A stretch of DNA of 64,000 bases from Armatimonadota bacterium (GTDB lineage: Bacteria; Armatimonadota; Armatimonadia; Armatimonadales; Armatimonadaceae). Positions 6,757-49,178 of this stretch are shown piece by piece (the first letter of the stretch is position 1; every line of letters begins with the position of its first letter). The translations under genes were made by a program, and so were the position numbers. Location of the stretch: NCBI GenBank assembly GCA_026392155.1, contig JAPLCP010000133.1, forward strand, positions 1-64,000, written 5' to 3'. The notes under the pieces were generated by a model that saw only the letters and a program-made list of their open reading frames with translations, did no database searches and had not been told where the DNA came from.

Positions 6757-6822
6757 CCACCCAGAGGGTACCCGGCGGGCCGATTTATCCGCCCGGATTC
6801 GTAATCCCACCCGGATTCGTGA
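6757..6822. repeat. Intergenic repeat sharing a 23-base block with the DUF1501 gene, plus a 17-18-base direct repeat
   Basis: Bases 6757-6779 are the exact reverse complement of 47886-47908, inside a coding sequence 41 kb away. Next to it, two near-tandem copies of ATCC-CCCGGATTCGT (about 6788-6804 and 6805-6822) form a short direct repeat. The block lies between the glycyl-tRNA synthetase stop and the hairpin at 6724. It looks like part of a dispersed repeat family. Confidence 0.6.
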
Positions 6823-21781: not shown

Positions 21782-21787
21782 TCCTTG

Positions 21788-22759
21788 ATGAACGTTCTTC
21801 TGGCGGGTCCGCGCGGCTTCTGTGCGGGAGTGGATCGGGCGATTGAGATTGTGGAAGTGGCGCTGGAGGTCTATGGCGCACCTCTCTACGTGCGACATGA
21901 GATCATCCACAACGAGCATGTCGTGGCACGGCTACGGAAGCGCGGCGTAGTCTTCACCGACTTCCTGAGCGATGTCCCGGAGGGCAGTAACCTGATCTTC
22001 TCGGCCCATGGCGTCTCGCCCGCCATTCGCGAAGAAGCAAAAGAGCGGCAGCTCAATGTGATAGACGGCACCTGCCCGCTGGTCACCAAGATCCACCTAG
22101 AAGTCCATAAGTTTCTCAAGCGTGGCTACGGGATATTCTTCATCGGGCACCGGGGCCATGTCGAGACCGAAGGCACGATGGGCGAGGCACCGGGAAAGCT
22201 GATCTTAGTCTGTGAGGAGCACGAGGTGGCGAGTCTGCCCGAGCCGCCCGACGAAAAGCTGATCTATCTGACGCAGACAACCCTCTCGATTGATGAGACG
22301 CGCGGCATTGTGGACGCGCTCAAGGCACGCTTTCCCCGGATGGAGAACCCGCCATCATCGGACATCTGCTACGCCACTCAGAACCGCCAAGACGCCGTGA
22401 AAGTGCTCGCCCAGAAAGCCGATACGATCCTGGTGATCGGCTCGCAGACCTCGTCCAACTCCCGCAGCCTGCGCCAGGTCGCCGAAGCACACGGAGCCCG
22501 CGCCTTTCTCATCGACGATGCCAGCTTCCTCACCGACGCCATGCTCGACGGCGCACAGACCGTCGGCGTGACCTCCGGCGCGTCTGCCCCCGAGGATGTT
22601 TTTCAAGGTGTTGTCGAAGCGCTCAAGGCCCGTGGCGCGACAAGTGTCGAGGAGTTTATCGTGCTCGAAGAAGATGTCGAGTTCAAGCTCCCACCCGGCT
22701 TGGTGCAGCTCCTCCCCCCTAACCCCCGTCGGACGGGGGCTAGGGGGGCGGTCAGGTAA
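21788..22759 (+). CDS. ispH: 4-hydroxy-3-methylbut-2-enyl diphosphate reductase
   Basis: 323 residues. The three Fe-S cluster cysteines sit in GPRGFCAGVDRAI (C12), DGTCPLVTKIH and ICYATQNRQ. AHGVSP, TLSIDETR and VIGSQTSSNS are also conserved. IspH makes IPP and DMAPP in the last step of the MEP pathway. TACAAT (21774-21779) ends 8 bases before the ATG. The last residues (QLLPPNPRRTGARGAVR) are not typical of IspH. They are encoded by a palindromic G/C-rich repeat that supplies the C-terminus and runs into the promoter of the next gene. Confidence 0.96.
   Translation: MNVLLAGPRGFCAGVDRAIEIVEVALEVYGAPLYVRHEIIHNEHVVARLRKRGVVFTDFLSDVPEGSNLIFSAHGVSPAIREEAKERQLNVIDGTCPLVTKIHLEVHKFLKRGYGIFFIGHRGHVETEGTMGEAPGKLILVCEEHEVASLPEPPDEKLIYLTQTTLSIDETRGIVDALKARFPRMENPPSSDICYATQNRQDAVKVLAQKADTILVIGSQTSSNSRSLRQVAEAHGARAFLIDDASFLTDAMLDGAQTVGVTSGASAPEDVFQGVVEALKARGATSVEEFIVLEEDVEFKLPPGLVQLLPPNPRRTGARGAVR
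22712..22750. repeat. In-frame palindromic G/C-rich repeat, copy 1 (ispH C-terminus)
   Basis: The left arm 22714-22730 (CCCCCCTAACCCCCGTC) pairs with 22732-22748 at 16 of 17 positions around a 1-base loop. It is read as LPPNPRRTGARG at the end of IspH. It shares its left arm with copies at 38662 and 47873. Confidence 0.8.
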
Positions 22760-29826: not shown

Positions 29827-29993
29827 GTGCCCTCCTCCCGTTTTCCCTCCTCCCGTTTTCCCTCCTCCCCCCCCGGCCCCCTCCTCACAATCCTGGGAGG
29901 AAGGGGAGAGAGGGGGAGATTCGTACTCCCTCCCCAATCCTGCCTCCGCAGGATTGGGAGGAGGGAAGAGCGAAGCGAAGGGAGGAGGGTCGC
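29827..29993. repeat. Low-complexity purine/pyrimidine repeat block between convergent genes
   Basis: This is the longest gene-free stretch of the window. It starts with just over two copies of a 15-base unit (CCCTCCTCCCGTTTT), then C-rich and G-rich tracts, then a hairpin and an AG-rich tail. It separates the OPT-like and MFS genes and holds no reading frame I would call. Confidence 0.6.
29934..29957. terminator. Hairpin between convergent genes, possible bidirectional terminator
   Basis: A perfect 10-base inverted repeat (CCAATCCTGC / GCAGGATTGG) with a 4-base loop. No T run follows on either strand, so intrinsic termination is unproven. AATCCTG also occurs at 29889, suggesting a decayed second copy of the same element. 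Confidence 0.4.
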
Positions 29994-34284: not shown

Positions 34285-35243
34285 GCACGTGCCCAGAGGC
34301 TCTCTAGCGGGCCACGGGGGAAACGGCGAAACCAGAGGAGGGTGAGCGGGAGTGCAAGGAGAAGATAGCCAAAGTAAGCCAGAAGCCCGGTACGCACGGG
34401 CCAGTCTTCATCGGGGTAGAGCAGGCGTAGTGGGGCGAAGACGGCGACAATGTGCAGGATGTAGTGCGTGAGCGAGGCGCGTCCAAGCAAGGCAAGCGGC
34501 TGTGTGATCTTTGGCAAGCCGCCTGCACTCTCCCACCAGAGCAGACCCGCGATCAATGCGGCAGCGCTACTTCCAATGCGCAGTAAAAACGGCAGTGTGG
34601 TGGGAATCCAAGTCGCGGGGCCAAGCGATTTCTCCCAGAGCTGCGTGATCAGGGCGACACTCAGGGCACCCCAGAAACAACGACGTATCCGTGTGGGTGT
34701 CAGGCCCGCTCCCAAGACGGCGCTCATTCCCAGCAGAGGCAGCGCCAGCCAGGGCAGAAGCGGGTAGTTTCCATCCAAGAGAAGTGCCCTTAGGGTCACC
34801 GCCCCAAAAGCATGATCCGCAAGGTGACTGCCATCGTCCTGCCAGTCCGTTGCGATAAAGTGCCCGAAGCGAAGCTGGCTTAGTGGTGTGGCAATCAGAA
34901 CCAGAACAAACACGACCCCGATCACGCGCGGGCCTTTCTTCCCGCGCCCAAGCCCAACGCCGAGCATCATCATCAGAGCCAGCGGGACGAGAACCTCCGT
35001 CGGCCAAACAAAATAATGCAGCACTGCCCCAAAAACTGCCAGCATCAGAGCGCGGCGTATAAACTTTATTGGCTTGTTTGTACGCCGCATCTGGAGCGCC
35101 CAGGCCATTCCCGCAAGCAGAAAGAAAAGCGCCGCCGCGCGGCCTTCTAGCACACTCGCAAGCTTGGAGCCGACGAAGTGCATGTAGATCATTCCCAAGA
35201 CGGCGACTCCACGGGCGACATCAAGGGCGACGAGGCGGCTCAC
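34281..35243 (-). CDS. DUF418/acyltransferase-like membrane protein
   Basis: 320 residues with about nine to ten membrane helices. The N-terminus RLVALDVARGVAVLGMIYMH resembles the start of DUF418 and HGSNAT-type membrane acyltransferases. The C-terminal WFRRFPRGPLESLWARA matches the DUF418 tail. It starts at GTG 35243, overlapping the stop of the NRPS-like gene by 4 bases (GTGA), so it is translationally coupled to it. The long in-frame extension to 35702 is Arg/Pro/Ser-rich shadow sequence of the NRPS gene. A role in modifying or exporting the NRPS product is an inference. Confidence 0.75.
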   Translation of the reverse strand: MSRLVALDVARGVAVLGMIYMHFVGSKLASVLEGRAAALFFLLAGMAWALQMRRTNKPIKFIRRALMLAVFGAVLHYFVWPTEVLVPLALMMMLGVGLGRGKKGPRVIGVVFVLVLIATPLSQLRFGHFIATDWQDDGSHLADHAFGAVTLRALLLDGNYPLLPWLALPLLGMSAVLGAGLTPTRIRRCFWGALSVALITQLWEKSLGPATWIPTTLPFLLRIGSSAAALIAGLLWWESAGGLPKITQPLALLGRASLTHYILHIVAVFAPLRLLYPDEDWPVRTGLLAYFGYLLLALPLTLLWFRRFPRGPLESLWARA

Positions 35244-38200
35244 CGGGTGGGGGCTCCTTCGTAGCGCTGGTTCGGAAGTAGAAATTCGTCTTTCATGATC
35301 ACACTGTGCGGCGCGATATAGGTTCCCTCTCCGATGACAGCTCCGTAGAGGGGGACGGTGTTGTTGGCTACGGTTGCGTTCGCACCGATTCGGACTTTGG
35401 CAAGCTTCAGCACCCGATCCTCGAAGGTATGGGCTTGGAAGGCCGCTGTCACCGTGGCACCGTCGCCGATCTCGATCATGTCGGGGTCTACCACTTGTGA
35501 GAAGCCACTGCCCAGCACCACGCCGCGCCCGAGCGTCAGGCCCATCGCGCGGAGATACCACGTGAGCATGGGAGTACCTTCGAGCGCGGTGAGCGTCCCG
35601 CGGGCATAGACTCCCCAAGCGACATAGAGAAAGTCCCAGCGGCTGCACCAGCACGACCAGAGCGCATGCGTCCCCGGGCGAGCGCGACCCAGCAGAAGCC
35701 ACTTGAGCGCTAAGATCGCCAGGCAGAGCACTGCCGCTCCGGCAAAGGCGAGCAGTGGTGCAGCCCAGGCGTGGTCTCTCAGCTTCCGTAAGCTCTCCGC
35801 GACAACGAGCACGGGAAGCACCGGCAAGGTGAAGCGGAGTATTTCCCAGAATAAGCGGTTTAGATAGCGAAGTAAGCTTGGGTTGTGGGTAAGCTCGCGA
35901 TCGTAGGCAACGATCTCACGGTGCGGCAGCGCAAAAGGCGGGTGCCCGAACCAAGACGTCCCGCTTGCCATGTACATATCATCGGCGACGGTGCAGACGC
36001 CCAGCAGAATATCGTCGGGTAAGTGTTGGCCCCCAGCGACGACCACGTGGTTGCCTAGAAAAACATTGGTGCCGATGGTGACTTTTGAAAGCGTCACCGT
36101 GCCGCGATGCACTCTTGGGCCACCCAGATAGATTCCATCGGCAAAAAACGTCTCCGGTCCAATCTCAATTAGCTCGGGGATGACATCAATAATCGTGCTA
36201 ATCTCGCAGCTTCGTCCCACACGCATCCCTGCCGCCCGGAGCCAGAGCGGCCAAAAGAGCGCGCCACTGAGCCACTCGTTCGCAGAGTCTACTAAGCCCG
36301 CCTTGAGCCAGAGGGGAATATAGGCCAGGCTCCAGCGCGAGAGCACACCCTCCGAGACGTGACCGAGGGCGCGGACGGCAAGGGCTTCCAGTAGGAGCGT
36401 GAGCGGCAAGGCGAGGGTCAGCACGAGGAGATAGGCTACGAGCCCACTCTCCTGCCCCACCCAGACCACGGCCCCCAGCGTGAGCAGCTCTAGGGGCAGC
36501 GCAAGCATCGCCCAGAGAGCGCTCTGCGCGAGTAGCAGCGCAAGGCTATAGGCCAGCGGCGAGAGGATGGGTTTTGTTTGGGTGATATTCGGTACGGGCG
36601 GTGCGTGTCCAGCGGGAGTGGCAGGAATGCCGTCCCAGTGCTCGCCCGCCGGAATCGTCTTGCCTGCGGGCAGTGAGGAGAGCGCGGCGAGAGAGGCTCC
36701 CGCTTCTAAACTTCCGCCCGGTGCAACACCCGCCCGGACATCGAGCGTAGCGCCTGTGCCGAGAGAGATGGGGCCGATGACAAGCTGACGGTTCTCCAGC
36801 TCGACGAGACGAAGAGACGCGTCCTGACTCACCGTGACATCGTCCCCGATATCGAGCAAGTCCCAGCCACCCTGAGTCAGATCCACGCCGCGATGCAAGT
36901 GCACGCGCTGCCCGATCCGCGACCCCAGTGCCCGAAGCGCCATGCACTGAAACTCAGTTCCGACGAGCACCGGCCAGGGAATCAGTCGTGCCGTCTGCAC
37001 CACGATCCAGTGTCTCAGATAGAAATCCCCCCAGACCGGCTCACGGCGCGGGGTGTACTTGCCGATCAGCAGGCGCTTCACCAAGACTGCAAAAAACACG
37101 GCTAGAGGCGTGTAGAGCGCCAGCCCCAGAAAAAGCAAGAGTGGCGTGATGAGAATCACCGTCATCAGTCCCAGACGCGAGAGCAGTGTGGGGAGAAGCT
37201 TGAAGAAGCCGCCGTAGGCCACAAAGGAAGCCAGAGTGAGCTCCAGCAGAAGCCAGAGGCTCTGAAGAACCCCTGTGTGCCGCTCGCCGTCTGTGTCCAG
37301 CGGCAGGTACGCTTGCTGCTGCGTCTGTTGAGAGCCATACCCAGAGGAGGGCAATGCCACTTGTGACACTCTCTGCGCCAGCGCGGCAACCGTGCGGGCT
37401 TCGTAGAGATCGCGAACGGTTAGGGATGCCGTGGCGGCATCTGTGCGCAGGCGTGAGATCAGCTGCGCTGCCTGGAGCGACGTGCCCCCGAGATCAAGGA
37501 AGAAATCTTCGTCGAGGGAGAGCGCTTCCGAGAGTAGCAGCGTCTCTTGAAATGTTGCGAGTAGCGATTTTTCCAGCAGGGTACGCGGCGCAACCATCTC
37601 GCGCTCTAAGCGAGGCACTACGCGTCGGAGCGTGGGGAGGCTCTCACGCTTGAGCTTGCCCCCGACGCTTTTGGGTAGCTCCGTGAGCACACCAAAGAGC
37701 GCAGGGATCATGTAGGAGGGCAGTGCCTCACGGAGCACGGCCTTGAGTTTGTCGAAGTCTGGCGGCTGAGTCGCATCTGTTGGGACGATAAACGCGACCA
37801 GATCGTTGCCTTCGTTCTGGACACAGCACGCCGCCTCGCGCACGCCCTCGCACTGGGCCAGGTAGGTCTCGATTGCCTCCAGCTCGATCCGGTAGCCACG
37901 GAGTTTTACTTGGGAATCAAGCCGCCCGTGGTAGTGAAACGCGCCGCTCTCGGGGTCACGGTGGACGAGATCGCCCGTTCGGTAGAGCCGTCCGAGTGTG
38001 GGATGCGAGAAAAACTTCTCCGCCGTCAGCTCCGGGCGTGCGTGGTAGCCCCGCGCCAGCCCAATTCCTCCGAGGCAGAGCTCGCCCGAAACTCCATCAA
38101 TAACTTCGTTGAGCGCACTATCCAGCACCCAGGCTTGCAAGCCTGGCACGGGCGTGCCAATGGTAATCGGCTCCCCGGCCAGAATCTCGCCGCGCAGGGC

Positions 38201-39109
38201 CGTGACCGTGCACTCCGTGGGGCCGTAGCCATTGACCAGCCGTCGCCCCCGCGCCCAGCGATCCGCGATATCACGTGGTAGCGCCTCGCCGCCCACGTAG
38301 AGGAGCTTGAGTAAAGGCAGGGACTCTTCTGGGTTTTCGCAACCGGTCGTTCGTAGCAGTGTGGGAGGTGGACAGAGCACGGTGATGCGCTCGCGCTGGA
38401 GCCAGCCTACCAAGTCCGGCCCCAGCCGCGCTGCGTCGTCGTCGAGGGCCACGACCGTCGCACCCGATGCCAGCGCCAGCCAGATTTCTTCCACGGACGA
38501 ATCGTAGGCAGGCGACGAGCCCTGCGCCACCCGGTCACCCGGCCCTAGTCCAAACTCGACCAAGTCAGACTGCACGAGATTAACAATGCTCTGGTGCTCT
38601 ATCAAGACGCCTTTGGGCTTGCCTGTCGTGCCCGAGGTGTAGATGACGTAGGCCAGCGCATCTTCCCCCCTAACCCCCGCCCAGCGGGGGGACGATAAGG
38701 AAGGGGCCACGTTTTGGGAAATGTCAAAGACTTTTGTCGGGAACGCGCCTCGCTCGGCGCGGGCCTGGCCGTGGGTGTTGGTGAGGAGCAGGACGGCGCT
38801 GGAGTCTCGGAGAATCTCGCGCACTTGCTCATCGGGAAACGACGGGTCAATGCAGACATACGCTGCCCCTGCGCTCAGCACGGCAAGCTGGGAGACATAG
38901 AGCCGCTCGGTATCGCGGCCAAGCAGGATCGCGACAATGCACTCACCCGAGACACTGGGCGGGAGCTGCGCCCGGAGCGCCTCGACTTCCTGCGCCAGTT
39001 CGGCATAGGTGAGTGTGCGCCGCTCAGGGCGGGTCAGGCTGGGTGGGATATCTATCGCAGCTGCCTCAGGCCAGGTGCGGGCGGCGCACTCGAAGAGCTC
39101 GTGGAGCAT
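35240..39109 (-). CDS. Orphan Pls-type NRPS: adenylation-PCP-membrane/hexapeptide-repeat protein
   Basis: 1289 residues. The adenylation domain (about 1-500) has A3 YTSGTTGKPKG (157-167), A5 YGPTECT, A7 YRTGDL, A8 GRLDSQVKLRGYRIE and the A10 Lys (GGKLKRE). A peptidyl carrier domain has the phosphopantetheine Ser in LGGTSL (about 541). From about 615, membrane helices alternate with three left-handed hexapeptide-repeat segments, the last ending ANATVANNTVPLYGAVIGEG. This matches the NRPS terminal-domain family related to epsilon-poly-lysine synthetase. There is no condensation or thioesterase domain. A palindromic repeat encodes residues about 136-150, just before A3. It follows the SASA gene by 8 bases. 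Confidence 0.9.
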   Translation of the reverse strand: MLHELFECAARTWPEAAAIDIPPSLTRPERRTLTYAELAQEVEALRAQLPPSVSGECIVAILLGRDTERLYVSQLAVLSAGAAYVCIDPSFPDEQVREILRDSSAVLLLTNTHGQARAERGAFPTKVFDISQNVAPSLSSPRWAGVRGEDALAYVIYTSGTTGKPKGVLIEHQSIVNLVQSDLVEFGLGPGDRVAQGSSPAYDSSVEEIWLALASGATVVALDDDAARLGPDLVGWLQRERITVLCPPPTLLRTTGCENPEESLPLLKLLYVGGEALPRDIADRWARGRRLVNGYGPTECTVTALRGEILAGEPITIGTPVPGLQAWVLDSALNEVIDGVSGELCLGGIGLARGYHARPELTAEKFFSHPTLGRLYRTGDLVHRDPESGAFHYHGRLDSQVKLRGYRIELEAIETYLAQCEGVREAACCVQNEGNDLVAFIVPTDATQPPDFDKLKAVLREALPSYMIPALFGVLTELPKSVGGKLKRESLPTLRRVVPRLEREMVAPRTLLEKSLLATFQETLLLSEALSLDEDFFLDLGGTSLQAAQLISRLRTDAATASLTVRDLYEARTVAALAQRVSQVALPSSGYGSQQTQQQAYLPLDTDGERHTGVLQSLWLLLELTLASFVAYGGFFKLLPTLLSRLGLMTVILITPLLLFLGLALYTPLAVFFAVLVKRLLIGKYTPRREPVWGDFYLRHWIVVQTARLIPWPVLVGTEFQCMALRALGSRIGQRVHLHRGVDLTQGGWDLLDIGDDVTVSQDASLRLVELENRQLVIGPISLGTGATLDVRAGVAPGGSLEAGASLAALSSLPAGKTIPAGEHWDGIPATPAGHAPPVPNITQTKPILSPLAYSLALLLAQSALWAMLALPLELLTLGAVVWVGQESGLVAYLLVLTLALPLTLLLEALAVRALGHVSEGVLSRWSLAYIPLWLKAGLVDSANEWLSGALFWPLWLRAAGMRVGRSCEISTIIDVIPELIEIGPETFFADGIYLGGPRVHRGTVTLSKVTIGTNVFLGNHVVVAGGQHLPDDILLGVCTVADDMYMASGTSWFGHPPFALPHREIVAYDRELTHNPSLLRYLNRLFWEILRFTLPVLPVLVVAESLRKLRDHAWAAPLLAFAGAAVLCLAILALKWLLLGRARPGTHALWSCWCSRWDFLYVAWGVYARGTLTALEGTPMLTWYLRAMGLTLGRGVVLGSGFSQVVDPDMIEIGDGATVTAAFQAHTFEDRVLKLAKVRIGANATVANNTVPLYGAVIGEGTYIAPHSVIMKDEFLLPNQRYEGAPTR
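38662..38708. repeat. In-frame palindromic G/C-rich repeat, copy 2 (in the adenylation domain)
   Basis: The plus strand reads TTCCCCCCTAACCCCCGCC, with an inner stem CCCCCGC (38674-38680) / GCGGGGG (38684-38690). The gene reads the other strand, giving SLSSPRWAGVRGED between the DIS strand and the A3 core. Its left arm matches copies at 22714 and 47875. Confidence 0.75.
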
Positions 39110-45184: not shown

Positions 45185-47791
45185 ATGCAACGCTGCTTTT
45201 TTGCCTTGATCCCCCTTGCACTCCTCAGTGCCCTCGCGCTGGCCAAGCCTGAGAGTGGTCTCTGGTCGCTCCAGCCGGTGCGGCTACCCCAAACGCCGAC
45301 GGTGCAGAATACTTCCTGGGTACGCAATCCTATTGATGCTTTTGTACTTGCCAAGCTCGAAGCCAAGGGCTGGAAGCCCGCGCCGGAGGCCGATAAGCGC
45401 ACGCTGATCCGCCGCGTGACATTTGACCTGACGGGCCTGCCGCCAACACCGCAAGAGATCGCCGCGTTTCTGGCCGACAAAACTCCCCATGCCTACGAAA
45501 AACTCGTAGACAGGTTACTCGCCTCGCCCCACTACGGCGAGCGCTGGGCGCGGCACTGGCTGGATCTTGCCCGGTTTGGCGAGAGCCATGGCTTTGAGTA
45601 CGATCACCTGCGCGAGCACGCCTGGCGCTACCGGGACTGGGTGGTTGAGGCACTCAACCGTGACCTGCCCTACGACCAGTTTGTGCGTGAGCAGCTCGCA
45701 GGCGATGTTCTCCCGGATGCCAGCCCGATCGCCACGGGCTTTCTGGTCGCGGGGCCACAGGACGAAGCGGGCAAAGGCGCACCAGGGCTTCAGGTGCGGC
45801 TCCGAGCACGCGAGGAGGAGCTGGAGGACATGATCGGCCTAGTCGGGCAGACGTTTTTAGGGTTGACCACCAACTGCGCGCGCTGCCATGACCACAAGTT
45901 CGACCCGATCCCCGCCAAGGACTACTACCGCCTCAAGGCCGCGCTGGCCGGAGTGCAGCCGGGCAACCGCTCCGTGCTCACGCAAAAACAGGCTGAGCAG
46001 CGTGCTGAGCAAGTGGCAGTGCTGCGCAGAAAGCAAGCCGAGTGCCAGAGCAAGCTTCGGCAGATTGAGGAGCCCACTCGCACACGCCTACTTGCTCAGG
46101 CGCGGCCTGTCGCCCCATCGCCCACCCCGCTGCTGCGCTTTAGCTTCGATGAGCAAGGCGGCCAGCTTGCGCTTGATGGCAAGACAAGCCGTTTCCAGAG
46201 CGAGCCGCTGGCCATGGAGATTCGGGAGAAGACGCTAGAAGCCTGGGTGCGCCTGGCCGACTTAGAGCAGCAGGGTGGGAGCGCCCTGACCATCGAGACC
46301 GAGGGGGGCGCACAGTTCGATGGGATTGTCTTTGGGGAGCGCCAGCGTGGGAAGTGGATCGCTGGGAGCGAGTTCTACCACCGGACAAAAGACCTCAATG
46401 CTCCCCAAGAAACGGAGACGGGGCTGGTTCAGGTGGTGATTGTCTACCGCGCCGATGGTCACATCCAGCTCTTTCGCAATGGTAAGCCCTACGCCGATGC
46501 CTACCAGCCCGAGAAGGCGGCTCGCACCTACCCGGCAGGCAAGACGCATCTTCTAGTTGGGCCACGCCACACCGGCTCCACGAACTTCCTGAAGGGCGAG
46601 CTCGAGGAAGTGCGCGTCTACGACCGAGCCCTCACGGATGCCGAAGTGGGGGAGTCGTACCAGAACGCCCCGTTCAATATTTCCCCGGAGACACTCACCG
46701 CGGCTCTCACTCAGAGCGAGCGCAGGCAGCGCGAGGTGCTCCAGGCAGAGAGTACGCGGCTGGCGGGAGAGCTAAAGACGCTCGAAGCTCCGGTTCAAGC
46801 CTACGCCGCGATCTCGCAGCAGCCCAGTCCGACCTATATCCTGCCCCGCGGCGATGTCACGGCGCAGGGAGAGCTCGTCACGCCAGGTGGTCTGAGCGCC
46901 CTCACTGCCTGTAACTCCGACTTTGGCCTCGCCGCCGATGCTCCCGAGGCAGAGCGCCGCCTCGCGCTGGCACGCTGGCTCACCGACTCTCGCAACCCAC
47001 TGACGGCGCGGGTGATGGTCAACCGGGTCTGGCAGGGGCACTTTGGACGTGGCATTGTCAGCACCGCGAGCGACTTTGGCAACAATGGCGAGAGCCCCAG
47101 CCACCCCGAGCTCCTCGACTGGCTGGCCACCGCGTTCTCCGGCCCCGGCGAGTGGAGCCTGAAAAAACTCCACCGCGCGATCCTGCTCTCCAGCACGTAT
47201 CGGCAGTCTGGGCAGCTCGATCCACAAGCCGCCAAGACCGATGCGGACAACCAGCTCCTCTGGCGCTTTGCCCCACGCCGCCTAGAGGCCGAGGCCGTGC
47301 GCGATAGCATGCTCGCCATCAGTGGCAAGCTCAACCCCGCGCTCGGCGGCCCTAGCTTCCGGCCCTTCACGGTCAGCAACTACGGCTCGGATTTCTATCA
47401 ACTGATCGACAAAGACACGCCCGAGTTCAACCGCCGGGCACTCTACCGAATGGGGGTTCAGAGCGCCCGAAATCCGCTGCTCGAAACCCTCGACTGCCCC
47501 GATCCCTCGACCAAAACCCCGAAGCGCACGGTCACCACGACGCCGATTCAAGCCCTCGCTCTGATGAACGATAGCTTCGTCCTGCGCCAGTCCCGCGCCT
47601 TCGCCGCAAAAGTGATCAAAGAGGCCGGGAGTCTCCCCGACCCCCAAGTCACTCTGGTCTACACCCTCGCCTTTGGCCGCCCACCGACGCCCACCGAGCG
47701 TCGCCGCGCCCTCGCCCATCTCAAAGCCCACCCGCTCGACAGTCTCTGTTGGGCACTGTTCAACTCCAGTGAGTTTCTCTATGCAAAATAG
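45185..47791 (+). CDS. DUF1549/DUF1553 (PSCyt2-PSD1) protein with LamG insertion
   Basis: 868 residues with signal peptide MQRCFFALIPLALLSALALA. DUF1549 (about 45-240) includes RRVTFDLTGLPPTPQEI, YGERWARHWLDLARF and CARCHDHKFDPI, a CxxCH haem-type motif near 233. A LamG-like lectin segment follows at about 320-500, then DUF1553 (about 590-868: LARWLTDSRNPLTARVMVNR, FGNNGESPSHPELLDW, LLSSTYRQS). The usual N-terminal cytochrome PSCyt1 domain is absent. It is paired with DUF1501 immediately downstream (11-base overlap), as in Planctomycetota. The biochemical role is unknown. TACAAT is 10 bases upstream. Confidence 0.93.
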   Translation: MQRCFFALIPLALLSALALAKPESGLWSLQPVRLPQTPTVQNTSWVRNPIDAFVLAKLEAKGWKPAPEADKRTLIRRVTFDLTGLPPTPQEIAAFLADKTPHAYEKLVDRLLASPHYGERWARHWLDLARFGESHGFEYDHLREHAWRYRDWVVEALNRDLPYDQFVREQLAGDVLPDASPIATGFLVAGPQDEAGKGAPGLQVRLRAREEELEDMIGLVGQTFLGLTTNCARCHDHKFDPIPAKDYYRLKAALAGVQPGNRSVLTQKQAEQRAEQVAVLRRKQAECQSKLRQIEEPTRTRLLAQARPVAPSPTPLLRFSFDEQGGQLALDGKTSRFQSEPLAMEIREKTLEAWVRLADLEQQGGSALTIETEGGAQFDGIVFGERQRGKWIAGSEFYHRTKDLNAPQETETGLVQVVIVYRADGHIQLFRNGKPYADAYQPEKAARTYPAGKTHLLVGPRHTGSTNFLKGELEEVRVYDRALTDAEVGESYQNAPFNISPETLTAALTQSERRQREVLQAESTRLAGELKTLEAPVQAYAAISQQPSPTYILPRGDVTAQGELVTPGGLSALTACNSDFGLAADAPEAERRLALARWLTDSRNPLTARVMVNRVWQGHFGRGIVSTASDFGNNGESPSHPELLDWLATAFSGPGEWSLKKLHRAILLSSTYRQSGQLDPQAAKTDADNQLLWRFAPRRLEAEAVRDSMLAISGKLNPALGGPSFRPFTVSNYGSDFYQLIDKDTPEFNRRALYRMGVQSARNPLLETLDCPDPSTKTPKRTVTTTPIQALALMNDSFVLRQSRAFAAKVIKEAGSLPDPQVTLVYTLAFGRPPTPTERRRALAHLKAHPLDSLCWALFNSSEFLYAK

Positions 47792-49178
47792 CCGTCGCGA
47801 CTTTCTCACCCAAGCCGCCGGTGGTCTCGGCTCCATCGCGCTTGCCGCACTCTTGGCGGATGAGGTAAAAGCCTCCCCCCTAACCCCCGCCGGGTACCCT
47901 CTGGGTGGGGGGGCCAAGCGTGTCGTTCAGATCTTTTGTTGTGGCGGCGTGAGCCACCTGGATACATTTGACTACAAGCCTGAATTAGTGCGAATGGATG
48001 GCAAGGAGTGTAAGAAAGTCTTCGATACATTCTTTGCGCAGCCGGGCAATCTGATGAAGAGCCCGTTTGCCTTTAAGCAGCACGGCCAGAGCGGGCGCTG
48101 GGTGAGTGAGCTGCTGCCACATCTTGCCCAGCAGGTGGACGACATCACGTTTATTTCGTCTATGAAGGCCAAGTCCGCCAACCACACGCCCGCGACCTTT
48201 CAGATGAACTCGGGCTTTACGCTCAATGGCTTTCCCTGCATGGGCGCGTGGCTGAGCTATGGTCTCGGCTCGCTCAACCAAGACCTGCCCACGTTTGTGG
48301 TGCTCCCCGACCCGCGCGGTCTGCCTGCCGGTGGGGCGATCAACTGGACCGCGGGGTTTCTGCCCGCGACGCACCAGGGGACGGCGTTCAATCCCAAGGG
48401 CCAGCCGGTCGATAACTTATTCCCCCCAAGCGACGTCAAAGCGACAGACCGGCAAGCGGCGCTGGGGCTGCTCAAGACGATGAACGCGGAGTTCGGCGCG
48501 GCCCACCCCGGCGACTCGGCGCTGGCAGCACGGATCAAGGCTTATGAGCTAGCAGCGCGGATGCAGGTCAGCATTCCACAGGTAGTCAAGTTCGACGAAG
48601 AACCAGAGCACATCAAGAAGCTCTACGGCCTCGACGATCCCGTAGCCGGGGGCTTTGCCCGAAACTGCCTGCTCGCCCGGCGCTTGCTCGAAAAAGGCGT
48701 GCGCTTTGTCCAGCTCTATCATGGCGGCGCGTTTGGCTCGCCGCGGATCAACTGGGACGGCCACGAGGATCTGCGCGACAACCACCTGACGCAGGCCAAG
48801 AGCATGGACCAGCCCGTCGCCGCACTGCTCGCAGACTTAAAACAGCGCGGGATGCTCGACGACACGCTGATCCTCTGGACCACAGAGTTTGGCCGCACGC
48901 CCATCACTCAGGGAGTCGGCAAGCCGGGCCGTGACCACCACCCGTTTGCCTACACCTGTTGGATGGCGGGCGCGGGTCTCAAGCCAGGCTTTTCCTACGG
49001 CAGCACCGATGAGCTCGGCTACGACACCGCCGAGAACCCCGTTAGTGTCTATGATTTCCATGCCACCGTCCTGCACCTGCTCGGCATCGACCACACCAAG
49101 CTCACCTACTACCACAACGGCACCCGTCGCCGCCTCACCGATGTGCATGGCGAGGTGATCCAGGGAATTCTTAGCTAG
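47781..49178 (+). CDS. DUF1501 protein, Tat-exported
   Basis: 465 residues from ATG 47781. The twin-arginine signal is NSRRDFLTQAAGG (R5/R6). The alkaline-phosphatase/sulfatase-like DUF1501 core follows: GGVSHLDTFDYKPEL, SGRWVSELLPHLA, NHTPATFQMNSG, FVQLYHGG, LWTTEFGRTPITQG, GRDHHPFAYTCW. Members occur with DUF1549/DUF1553 partners and their substrate is unknown. The 13 residues SPLTPAGYPLGGG just after the signal are encoded by a palindromic repeat. The start overlaps the previous gene by 11 bases; the stop is interlocked with the convergent oxidase in CTAG. Confidence 0.94.
   Translation: MQNSRRDFLTQAAGGLGSIALAALLADEVKASPLTPAGYPLGGGAKRVVQIFCCGGVSHLDTFDYKPELVRMDGKECKKVFDTFFAQPGNLMKSPFAFKQHGQSGRWVSELLPHLAQQVDDITFISSMKAKSANHTPATFQMNSGFTLNGFPCMGAWLSYGLGSLNQDLPTFVVLPDPRGLPAGGAINWTAGFLPATHQGTAFNPKGQPVDNLFPPSDVKATDRQAALGLLKTMNAEFGAAHPGDSALAARIKAYELAARMQVSIPQVVKFDEEPEHIKKLYGLDDPVAGGFARNCLLARRLLEKGVRFVQLYHGGAFGSPRINWDGHEDLRDNHLTQAKSMDQPVAALLADLKQRGMLDDTLILWTTEFGRTPITQGVGKPGRDHHPFAYTCWMAGAGLKPGFSYGSTDELGYDTAENPVSVYDFHATVLHLLGIDHTKLTYYHNGTRRRLTDVHGEVIQGILS
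47873..47913. repeat. In-frame palindromic G/C-rich repeat, copy 3 (DUF1501 gene)
   Basis: CCCCCCTAACCCCCGCC runs into GGGTACCC (itself palindromic) and ends in GGGTGGGGGGG. Bases 47886-47908 are repeated exactly, inverted, at 6757-6779. It is translated SPLTPAGYPLGGG between the Tat signal and the mature domain. Confidence 0.8.

Follow-up and report, generated by a model that had tools for sequence, protein, structure and literature searches.

The Rickettsia palindromic elements (Ogata et al. 2000, 2002) are described, in the parts of two sources that deal with them, as dispersed palindromes of ~105-150 bp that contain an open frame; they lie between genes as well as inside unrelated conserved genes, to which they are fused in frame, and nearly half of the copies are in genes (PMC10969869, PMC2229807). 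A passage of a 2024 review calls a similar mechanism in other prokaryotes "conceivable" (PMC10969869). ERIC, the Yersinia palindromic sequence and the 107-bp Correia repeat are likewise presented, in the relevant portion of one source, as small non-autonomous repeats that can be fused in frame to ORFs (PMC2229807). In the REPIN/RAYT system, as outlined in sections of the work describing it, two inverted REP hairpins enclose a spacer, compensatory changes are found, singlets persist as remnants and most copies are extragenic; a clover fold is also mentioned there (PMC3116915). REPs tagged with GTAG or CGTC have, according to excerpts of a 2013 study, intragenic dimers that encode 20-30 amino acids, possibly in linkers or loops, in several species, and recB of two Xanthomonas species carries different REPs at nearly the same position (PMC3733652). 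The same excerpts list intragenic REPs in several phyla, and the string "armatimonad" has 0 occurrences in the paper (PMC3733652).

The repeat analysed here is present in a 64-kb window (the whole stretch of DNA that was analysed) from a member of the Armatimonadota. We regard it, with a probability of about 0.78, as a REPIN-like non-autonomous dispersed repeat whose in-gene copies survive in tolerant loops. The first-pass annotation of the window had compared it to the Rickettsia palindromic elements, and the parallel holds for the in-frame copies in unrelated genes, but the REP doublet is structurally closer. Likened to the Rickettsia elements by description only, the present one differs in its host, which is not Rickettsia, its length of 78-81 nt, its G/C-richness, a genome of 4.8-6.3 Mb and a count of 16 in-frame in-gene sites among 147. 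ERIC, the Yersinia palindromic sequence and Correia are set apart, again by description, by their greater length of 107-168 bp as given in part of the same source (PMC2229807). Unlike the REPIN or REP doublet, the element has no GTAG (or CGTC) tag at its hairpin in 34 aligned full copies, and, unlike in the REPIN/RAYT system, no Y1 transposase gene flanked by the element is present in the window's genome or in that of its congener.

Since intragenic REP dimers, REPINs and Rickettsia palindromic elements are already in print, the kind of element is known. New to us are the untagged element, the phylum, the enzyme loops that are occupied in one genome and empty in another, and loops that hold different palindromes in different species. 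The invasion of genes by palindromic repeats that keep the reading frame, best known from Rickettsia, is here documented for a further phylum, in named enzymes whose sites are occupied in some genomes and empty in others. The earlier statement that no such element had been described for this lineage agrees with the literature searched, where no repeat of this kind in Armatimonadota was found (a weak negative, subscription papers being outside the scope). Paper texts matching the arm, its complement or the peptide SPLTPARRG concern, by their titles, only wound healing and Salmonella prophages. Small dispersed repeats have reportedly been described in cyanobacteria by Elhai in 2008.

Copies of the repeat in the window

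The exact arm CCCCCCTAACCCCCG occurs at 22714-22728, 38665-38679 and 47875-47889, always on the + strand. These are the three copies that the first-pass annotation had listed, with the position of the second corrected from 38662 to 38665 and its orientation specified (arm on the + strand, host gene on the - strand). The complementary second arm attributed to each copy is real but differs among them: both arms are present at 22714, only a half at 38665, and the copy at 47875 continues as CGGGTACCCTCTGGGTG. All three are decayed, and intact elements of 78-81 nt are found elsewhere in the genome; we regard the three as probable decayed survivors of insertion. The proposal that each is read through without a stop was upheld (predicted peptides LPPNPRRTGARGA, SPLTPAGYPLGGG and PSLSSPRWAGVRGE), and so was their placement in tolerant spots, namely behind a LYTB domain, before a DUF1501 domain and upstream of YTSGTTGKPKG in an AMP-binding domain.

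The copy at 22714..22748 (+) is a short form of 35 nt with both arms and one hairpin, the spacer having been lost. It is predicted to encode the C-terminal tail LPPNPRRTGARGA of IspH (LYTB family by Pfam; gene at 21785..22759, +), behind a LYTB domain that covers residues 4-281 of 324. At the end of the congener's ispH (L309; L numbers denote sequence stretches around loci), a nearly full element with a damaged right arm is present, and the ispH stop codon lies inside it. The copy at 38665..38702 (+) is a half element made up of the arm, the hairpin and the spacer start GACGATAAGGAA. It is read antisense, as PSLSSPRWAGVRG, in an NRPS-like gene at 35240..39109 (-) with AMP-binding, AMP-binding_C and PP-binding domains by Pfam, and the predicted read-through peptide PSLSSPRWAGVRGE falls inside AMP-binding (7-356), just upstream of the YTSGTTGKPKG motif. 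This loop aligns without a gap to that of linear gramicidin synthetase and is no longer, so the copy replaces residues rather than adding them.

The third copy, at 47875..47913 (+), joins a half element to a second dispersed repeat, CGGGTACCCTCTGGGTG, a copy of which lies at 47891..47907 (+) inside the decayed element. It encodes SPLTPAGYPLGGG between the signal peptide and the DUF1501 domain of a gene at 47781..49178 (+), whose start is inferred at the ATG at 47781 within an ORF of 47673-49178; the insert stands just before the domain, which begins at ORF residue 81. In this position, the congener's orthologue (L290) has an element that is longer and asymmetric. Altogether, five DUF1501 genes of the two genomes have the element there (the one in the window, L237, L290, L308 and L317), the likeliest reading being one or more old insertions passed down by speciation and duplication. 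Because they are common to the congener, neither the DUF1501 nor the ispH copies are recent. A PDB search for DUF1501 returned nothing useful.

The second repeat, CGGGTACCCTCTGGGTG, has 36 exact copies in the window's genome (G000), 50 in the congener (G001), 19 in G008 and 1 in G004, with 0 in the control and 0 in eight other genomes; besides the copy at 47891..47907, the window holds one at 6758-6774 (-). A third C/G-rich palindrome, CCCCCTCCTCACAATCCTGGGAGGAAGGGG, occupies positions 29869-29930 and is similar by eye to sequences at L231:819 and L269:1516.

Architecture, dispersal and genomic placement

The intact element, of ~78-81 nt, consists of two inverted hairpin units that flank a spacer of ~25 nt. 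Each unit has the consensus CCCCCCTAA-CCCCCGY-NNN-RCGGGGG and is able to form its own hairpin; a full copy reads CCCCCCTAACCCCCG-YNNNR-CGGGGG and, after a spacer (for instance GACAATAAGGAATCCGATTCCTTATTGTC), repeats this unit in inverted orientation. The commonest core lengths are 76 (21/70 full copies) and 79 (23/70), equivalent to 78 or 81 nt with six-base runs. In the 34 aligned full copies, the hairpins are bordered by CTAA (in a minority CTAG) on one side and by GGACA, GGAATA or alike on the other.

The hairpin is sustained by compensatory changes at its tip. Among 212 halves, the pair closing the 3-nt loop is C-G in 156, T-A in 55 and T-G in one, with no mismatch; standard closing pairs are thus seen in 212/212, against 171.5 expected if the letters were independent. 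In the 34-copy alignment (A1), the two closing pairs are paired in 34/34 and 33/34 copies, with 8 and 14 double changes, respectively. Over the whole two-hairpin structure, the same alignment displays no excess of pairing (84.5% observed vs 86.0% shuffled), and covariation is 0.092 vs 0.088 when shuffled, so that only the two closing pairs support the structure. The minimum-energy fold of single molecules is one long hairpin rather than two small ones. This fold was considered and rejected: it is favoured by energy, but it has closing bases paired in 34/68 and loops in 5/68, with no covariation, and against shuffles of the 34-copy alignment it scores worse than the two-hairpin structure.

In six orthologous pairs, identity amounts to 274/294 (93%) in the arms, 3057/3580 in the flanks and 82/124 (66%) in the spacer, and in four of the five orthologous full pairs the spacer is less alike than the flanks, the remaining one being above them (22/23). 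These comparisons bear on the possibility of a conventional MITE, that is, the terminal inverted repeats of a DDE-transposase insertion sequence absent from or unrecognised in these genomes. Such an origin would account for a full palindrome with inverted ends and for the lack of any Y1 transposase gene adjoining the element (see below). Nevertheless, each half keeps an internal hairpin of its own, a feature not required of a terminal inverted repeat, the low identity of the spacer in those four pairs is not shared by the arms, and no consistent target-site duplication is apparent by eye among 70 full copies. A MITE is an unlikely source.

Copies beyond the window, whose absence the first-pass annotation would have taken as a refutation, proved numerous. 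The exact arm is present 54 times in the 4.77 Mb of G000 (29 forward and 25 reverse), and its reversed-letter control 0 times. Across 101 genomes scanned, the arm plus hairpin pattern CCCCTAACCCCCGN{3,6}CGGGGG matches 60 times in G000, 82 times in G001, 5 times in G007 (a genome of the same family) and in none of the remaining 98, with a backwards control giving 3 matches in total, in two other genomes. A 14-mer with one mismatch allowed is found at 124 places in G000 (4 in the control) and 137 in G001 (11 in the control). The window alone, with three mismatches allowed, holds 5 arm matches, which is not above chance (22/100 shuffles reach 5); it is across the two congeneric genomes that dispersal to dozens of sites is seen.

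These counts weigh heavily against the idea that ordinary, variable, low-complexity Pro/Gly/Arg-rich linkers have come to resemble the repeat by convergence. Linkers at these places do vary among relatives, and the NRPS loop is no longer than that of gramicidin synthetase. Identity of the DNA, and not only of the peptide, at the 54 exact places with a control of 0, together with copies in both orientations and mostly outside genes, makes convergence scarcely credible.

Sites were classified in stretches taken around arm matches of G000 and G001, with a hairpin within tolerance required. The resulting 147 sites comprise 70 full palindromes, 73 halves and 4 short forms; single arms would represent decay products. 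For G000 the set takes in each of the 69 places at which the 14-mer is listed without a mismatch, and for G001 every such listed place except C11:6030; places with one mismatch are included only in part, among the matches listed. The window copy at 47875 is outside the set, since the pattern does not allow for a loop of that length. Genes were called with a simple hexamer coding model trained here, which is not an annotation.

By these calls, 54 of the 147 midpoints fall in genes, and 23 lie at least 100 nt from both gene ends, against a coding share of 80% of the examined sequence. The majority of sites are thus extragenic, often directly 3' of a stop codon. Of the 93 outside genes, 60 are between unidirectional genes, 17 between convergent and 7 between divergent ones, with 9 at stretch ends; their distance to the gene is at most 25 nt in 77/94 cases on the stop side and 45/74 on the start side. 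Divergent gaps hold 7/84 sites vs ~21% of the intergenic length. This proximity to genes, together with the greater likeness of arms than of flanks over the six pairs, would be expected of a cis-regulatory or RNA-processing element (a 3'-end stabiliser, attenuator or leader) kept for its function and found in genes by accident. However, presence and absence differ between the congeners, the hosts are unrelated, no Rfam match reached the gathering score in 6 sources, and compact genomes leave little other intergenic room. We consider a regulatory element very unlikely. At L225:3990-4015, a half element was noted by eye where a type IV prepilin-like gene (called by the hexamer model) begins; read in the usual PLTPA frame, it would supply the leader part PLTPAQRGKYAFTLIELLVV if translation starts upstream of it.

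In-gene copies, empty sites and loops with other palindromes

The first-pass annotation had emphasised insertion inside genes. Under a strict test, in which both 150-nt flanks had to be coding in the same frame with no stop, such insertion was found at 16 of the 147 sites (10 in G000 and 6 in G001), but these intragenic copies are a minority and most sites are extragenic. Three of the 16 are doubtful: L238:6181 is degenerate and has no Pfam match, L302:11710 lies in an ORF without an ATG, and L279:3959 is a degenerate half. Ten more sites have both flanks coding on the same strand, but there the element introduces a stop codon or a change of frame. The test also missed three copies that are open by reading, namely the window copies at 22714 (at a gene end) and 47875, and L317.

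Two forms of built-in design were examined and discarded. On one hand, the distance from C-run to G-run is divisible by 3 in 18/60 full copies not classed as in-gene and in 6/10 of the in-gene ones, so the in-frame copies look like survivors and not like a designed unit. On the other hand, at least one stop-free frame is present in 59/60 full copies not classed as in-gene, which rules out an open frame selected only inside genes. Since almost any full copy has such a frame, read-through needs no special design and survival in linkers or loops is feasible. Most in-gene insertions would have been purged, and those in linkers and loops may have survived where a stop-free frame of the element fitted. 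The survivors would add up to ~27 residues, probably with neutral effect.

Intact in-gene copies read, in predicted translation, as variants of SPLTPARRGDNKE...SPRRAGVRG, that is, SPLTPA-RRGDNKE...SPRRAGVRG. The predicted read-through is SPLTPAERGDNKETDSLNPPRRAGDGGE in MetH, GPLTPAERGEYKESDSSLSPRSTGVRG in QueG and SPLAPARRGENKEIPLVPPAGRGMGG in a WD40 protein, and the insert peptide SPLTPAERGDNKE is predicted for MetH or QueG. According to Pfam, the insert lies inside the activation domain of MetH, inside QueG_DUF1730 of QueG and inside the domain of a sulfatase, between Pro_dh and Aldedh in PutA, between the domains of a lipoyl/2-oxoacid_dh acyltransferase, between the modules of a double aldehyde dehydrogenase, and behind the catalytic domain of an alpha-amylase-family enzyme. 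Other hosts recognised by Pfam are a PSCyt2/PSD1 protein, the WD40 protein, a C39 peptidase-like protein and further DUF1501 proteins.

That these stretches are absent from homologues, a point on which the insertion claim depended, is borne out in three enzymes compared within the GTDB family. The MetH insert of G001 (L318) is missing from G000 (L345) and, G000 included, from 7/7 other genomes that align across the site (nine were given, two of them not aligning there; G004 was not given). The QueG insert, also in G001, is missing from 9/9 other sequences compared, one of them aligned on one side only, and the PutA insert of G000 (L243) from 11/11 others, one partly aligned, including L373 of G001. 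The aldehyde dehydrogenase with an insert in G000 (L261) has another linker in G001 (L396), and at the acyltransferase insert of G000 the congener has a different DNA stretch. Outside genes, occupied and empty orthologous sites are seen in L339 vs L254 and in L314 vs L241.

The QueG and PutA loops of relatives hold palindromes of other families. In 13 loop sequences, the longest perfect inverted repeat (up to 25 nt) was compared with 300 letter shuffles. For QueG, G000 and G006 hold palindromes, a different one in each, whose arms reach at least 25 nt (0/300 shuffles), G004 has arms of 12 nt (1/300), and G007, G002 and G005 have nothing beyond chance. For the PutA linker, arms are at least 25 nt in G008 (0/300), 12 nt in G006 (2/300) and 10 nt in G001 (1/300), with nothing beyond chance in G002, G003, G007 and G009. 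Long palindromes thus occur in 3/13 sequences, suggestive ones in 3/13 and none in 7/13, counts that are not a fair frequency because both loops were chosen for holding the element. All the palindromes are read through in frame, e.g., PSPLPLRERG...PSPAAGEGKG in QueG of G006. Of 119 other stretches, 8 share 16-mers with the G000 QueG stretch and 6 with the G001 PutA stretch, as expected of dispersed repeats. With occupied and empty sites, and different palindromes at two loops, neutrality and loop reuse above chance become directly testable.

Mobility and related hairpins in other organisms

A transposase supplied in trans may have moved or duplicated the element in the form of DNA hairpins. 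Y1_Tnp (PF01797) is matched 4 times in G000, where the last two matches belong to a single gene, 7 times in G001 and 3 times in G007. None of the 11 in G000 and G001 has the element within ~1.5 kb, the nearest being ~1.8 kb away, and two of the three in G007 were inspected and have none in their flanks. A RAYT association was therefore rejected, as the element borders no inspected Y1_Tnp match. With a profile derived from six Y1_Tnp matches, no Y1 gene was detected at E 1e-4 in 130 loci of other organisms and viruses (L087-L216), a threshold that divergent ones may escape.

Some Y1_Tnp genes have their own inverted hairpin repeats on either side, e.g., AAAGCCCGTGCCGGGCT at L221 and CGCCCCCGTT hairpins at L220, and these look like RAYT/REP pairs. 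Just beyond the window, at G000:C68:74961-75294 (L283, L395), a RAYT-like Y1_Tnp gene matches in two overlapping frames and is apparently broken.

The hairpin is not private to the lineage, near-identical ones being present in other phyla and in phages. The half unit was found in at least 102 stretches of other genomes, many from Saprospiraceae, Brocadia, other Planctomycetota and Bacteroidota, and outside the lineage it often takes the form TCCACCCCCTAACCCCCGCCAGCGGGGGACA. Among the matches listed, 116 sites from other organisms include 28 in which the G run is followed by ACA, as in the present element, and 6 with an inverted partner arm within 110 nt.

A broader proposal, which we hold tentatively and at somewhat less than even odds, is that of a cross-phylum superfamily of TAAC-tagged REPs. 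Its doublets in this Armatimonadota family would be a standing source of in-frame peptide insertions, and different palindromic families would, in different species, land repeatedly in particular loops and linkers of core enzymes, QueG and PutA among them. Its probability was raised by the finding that relatives hold, at the QueG and PutA positions, long perfect inverted repeats that belong to other families. If it is true, selfish DNA writes part of the loop variation of a proteome, in a lineage with genomes of 4.8-6.3 Mb that is far from Rickettsia.

Hairpins of this type are also read in frame in viral sequences. In IMG/VR stretches (L189-L216), the pattern is read in frame as PPNPR, then mostly KRG or QRG, in 24 of 28, and in 3/4 of the proteins scanned PPNPR stands behind an N-terminal DUF1376 domain. 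Among 36 loci with relatives of one viral protein, not all of which cover the linker, the hairpin is present in 7, and PPNPR in 0 of the 29 others, one of which has PPNPP on similar DNA. Because the hairpin-less relatives are without PPNPR, the viral motif looks like a feature of the DNA level.
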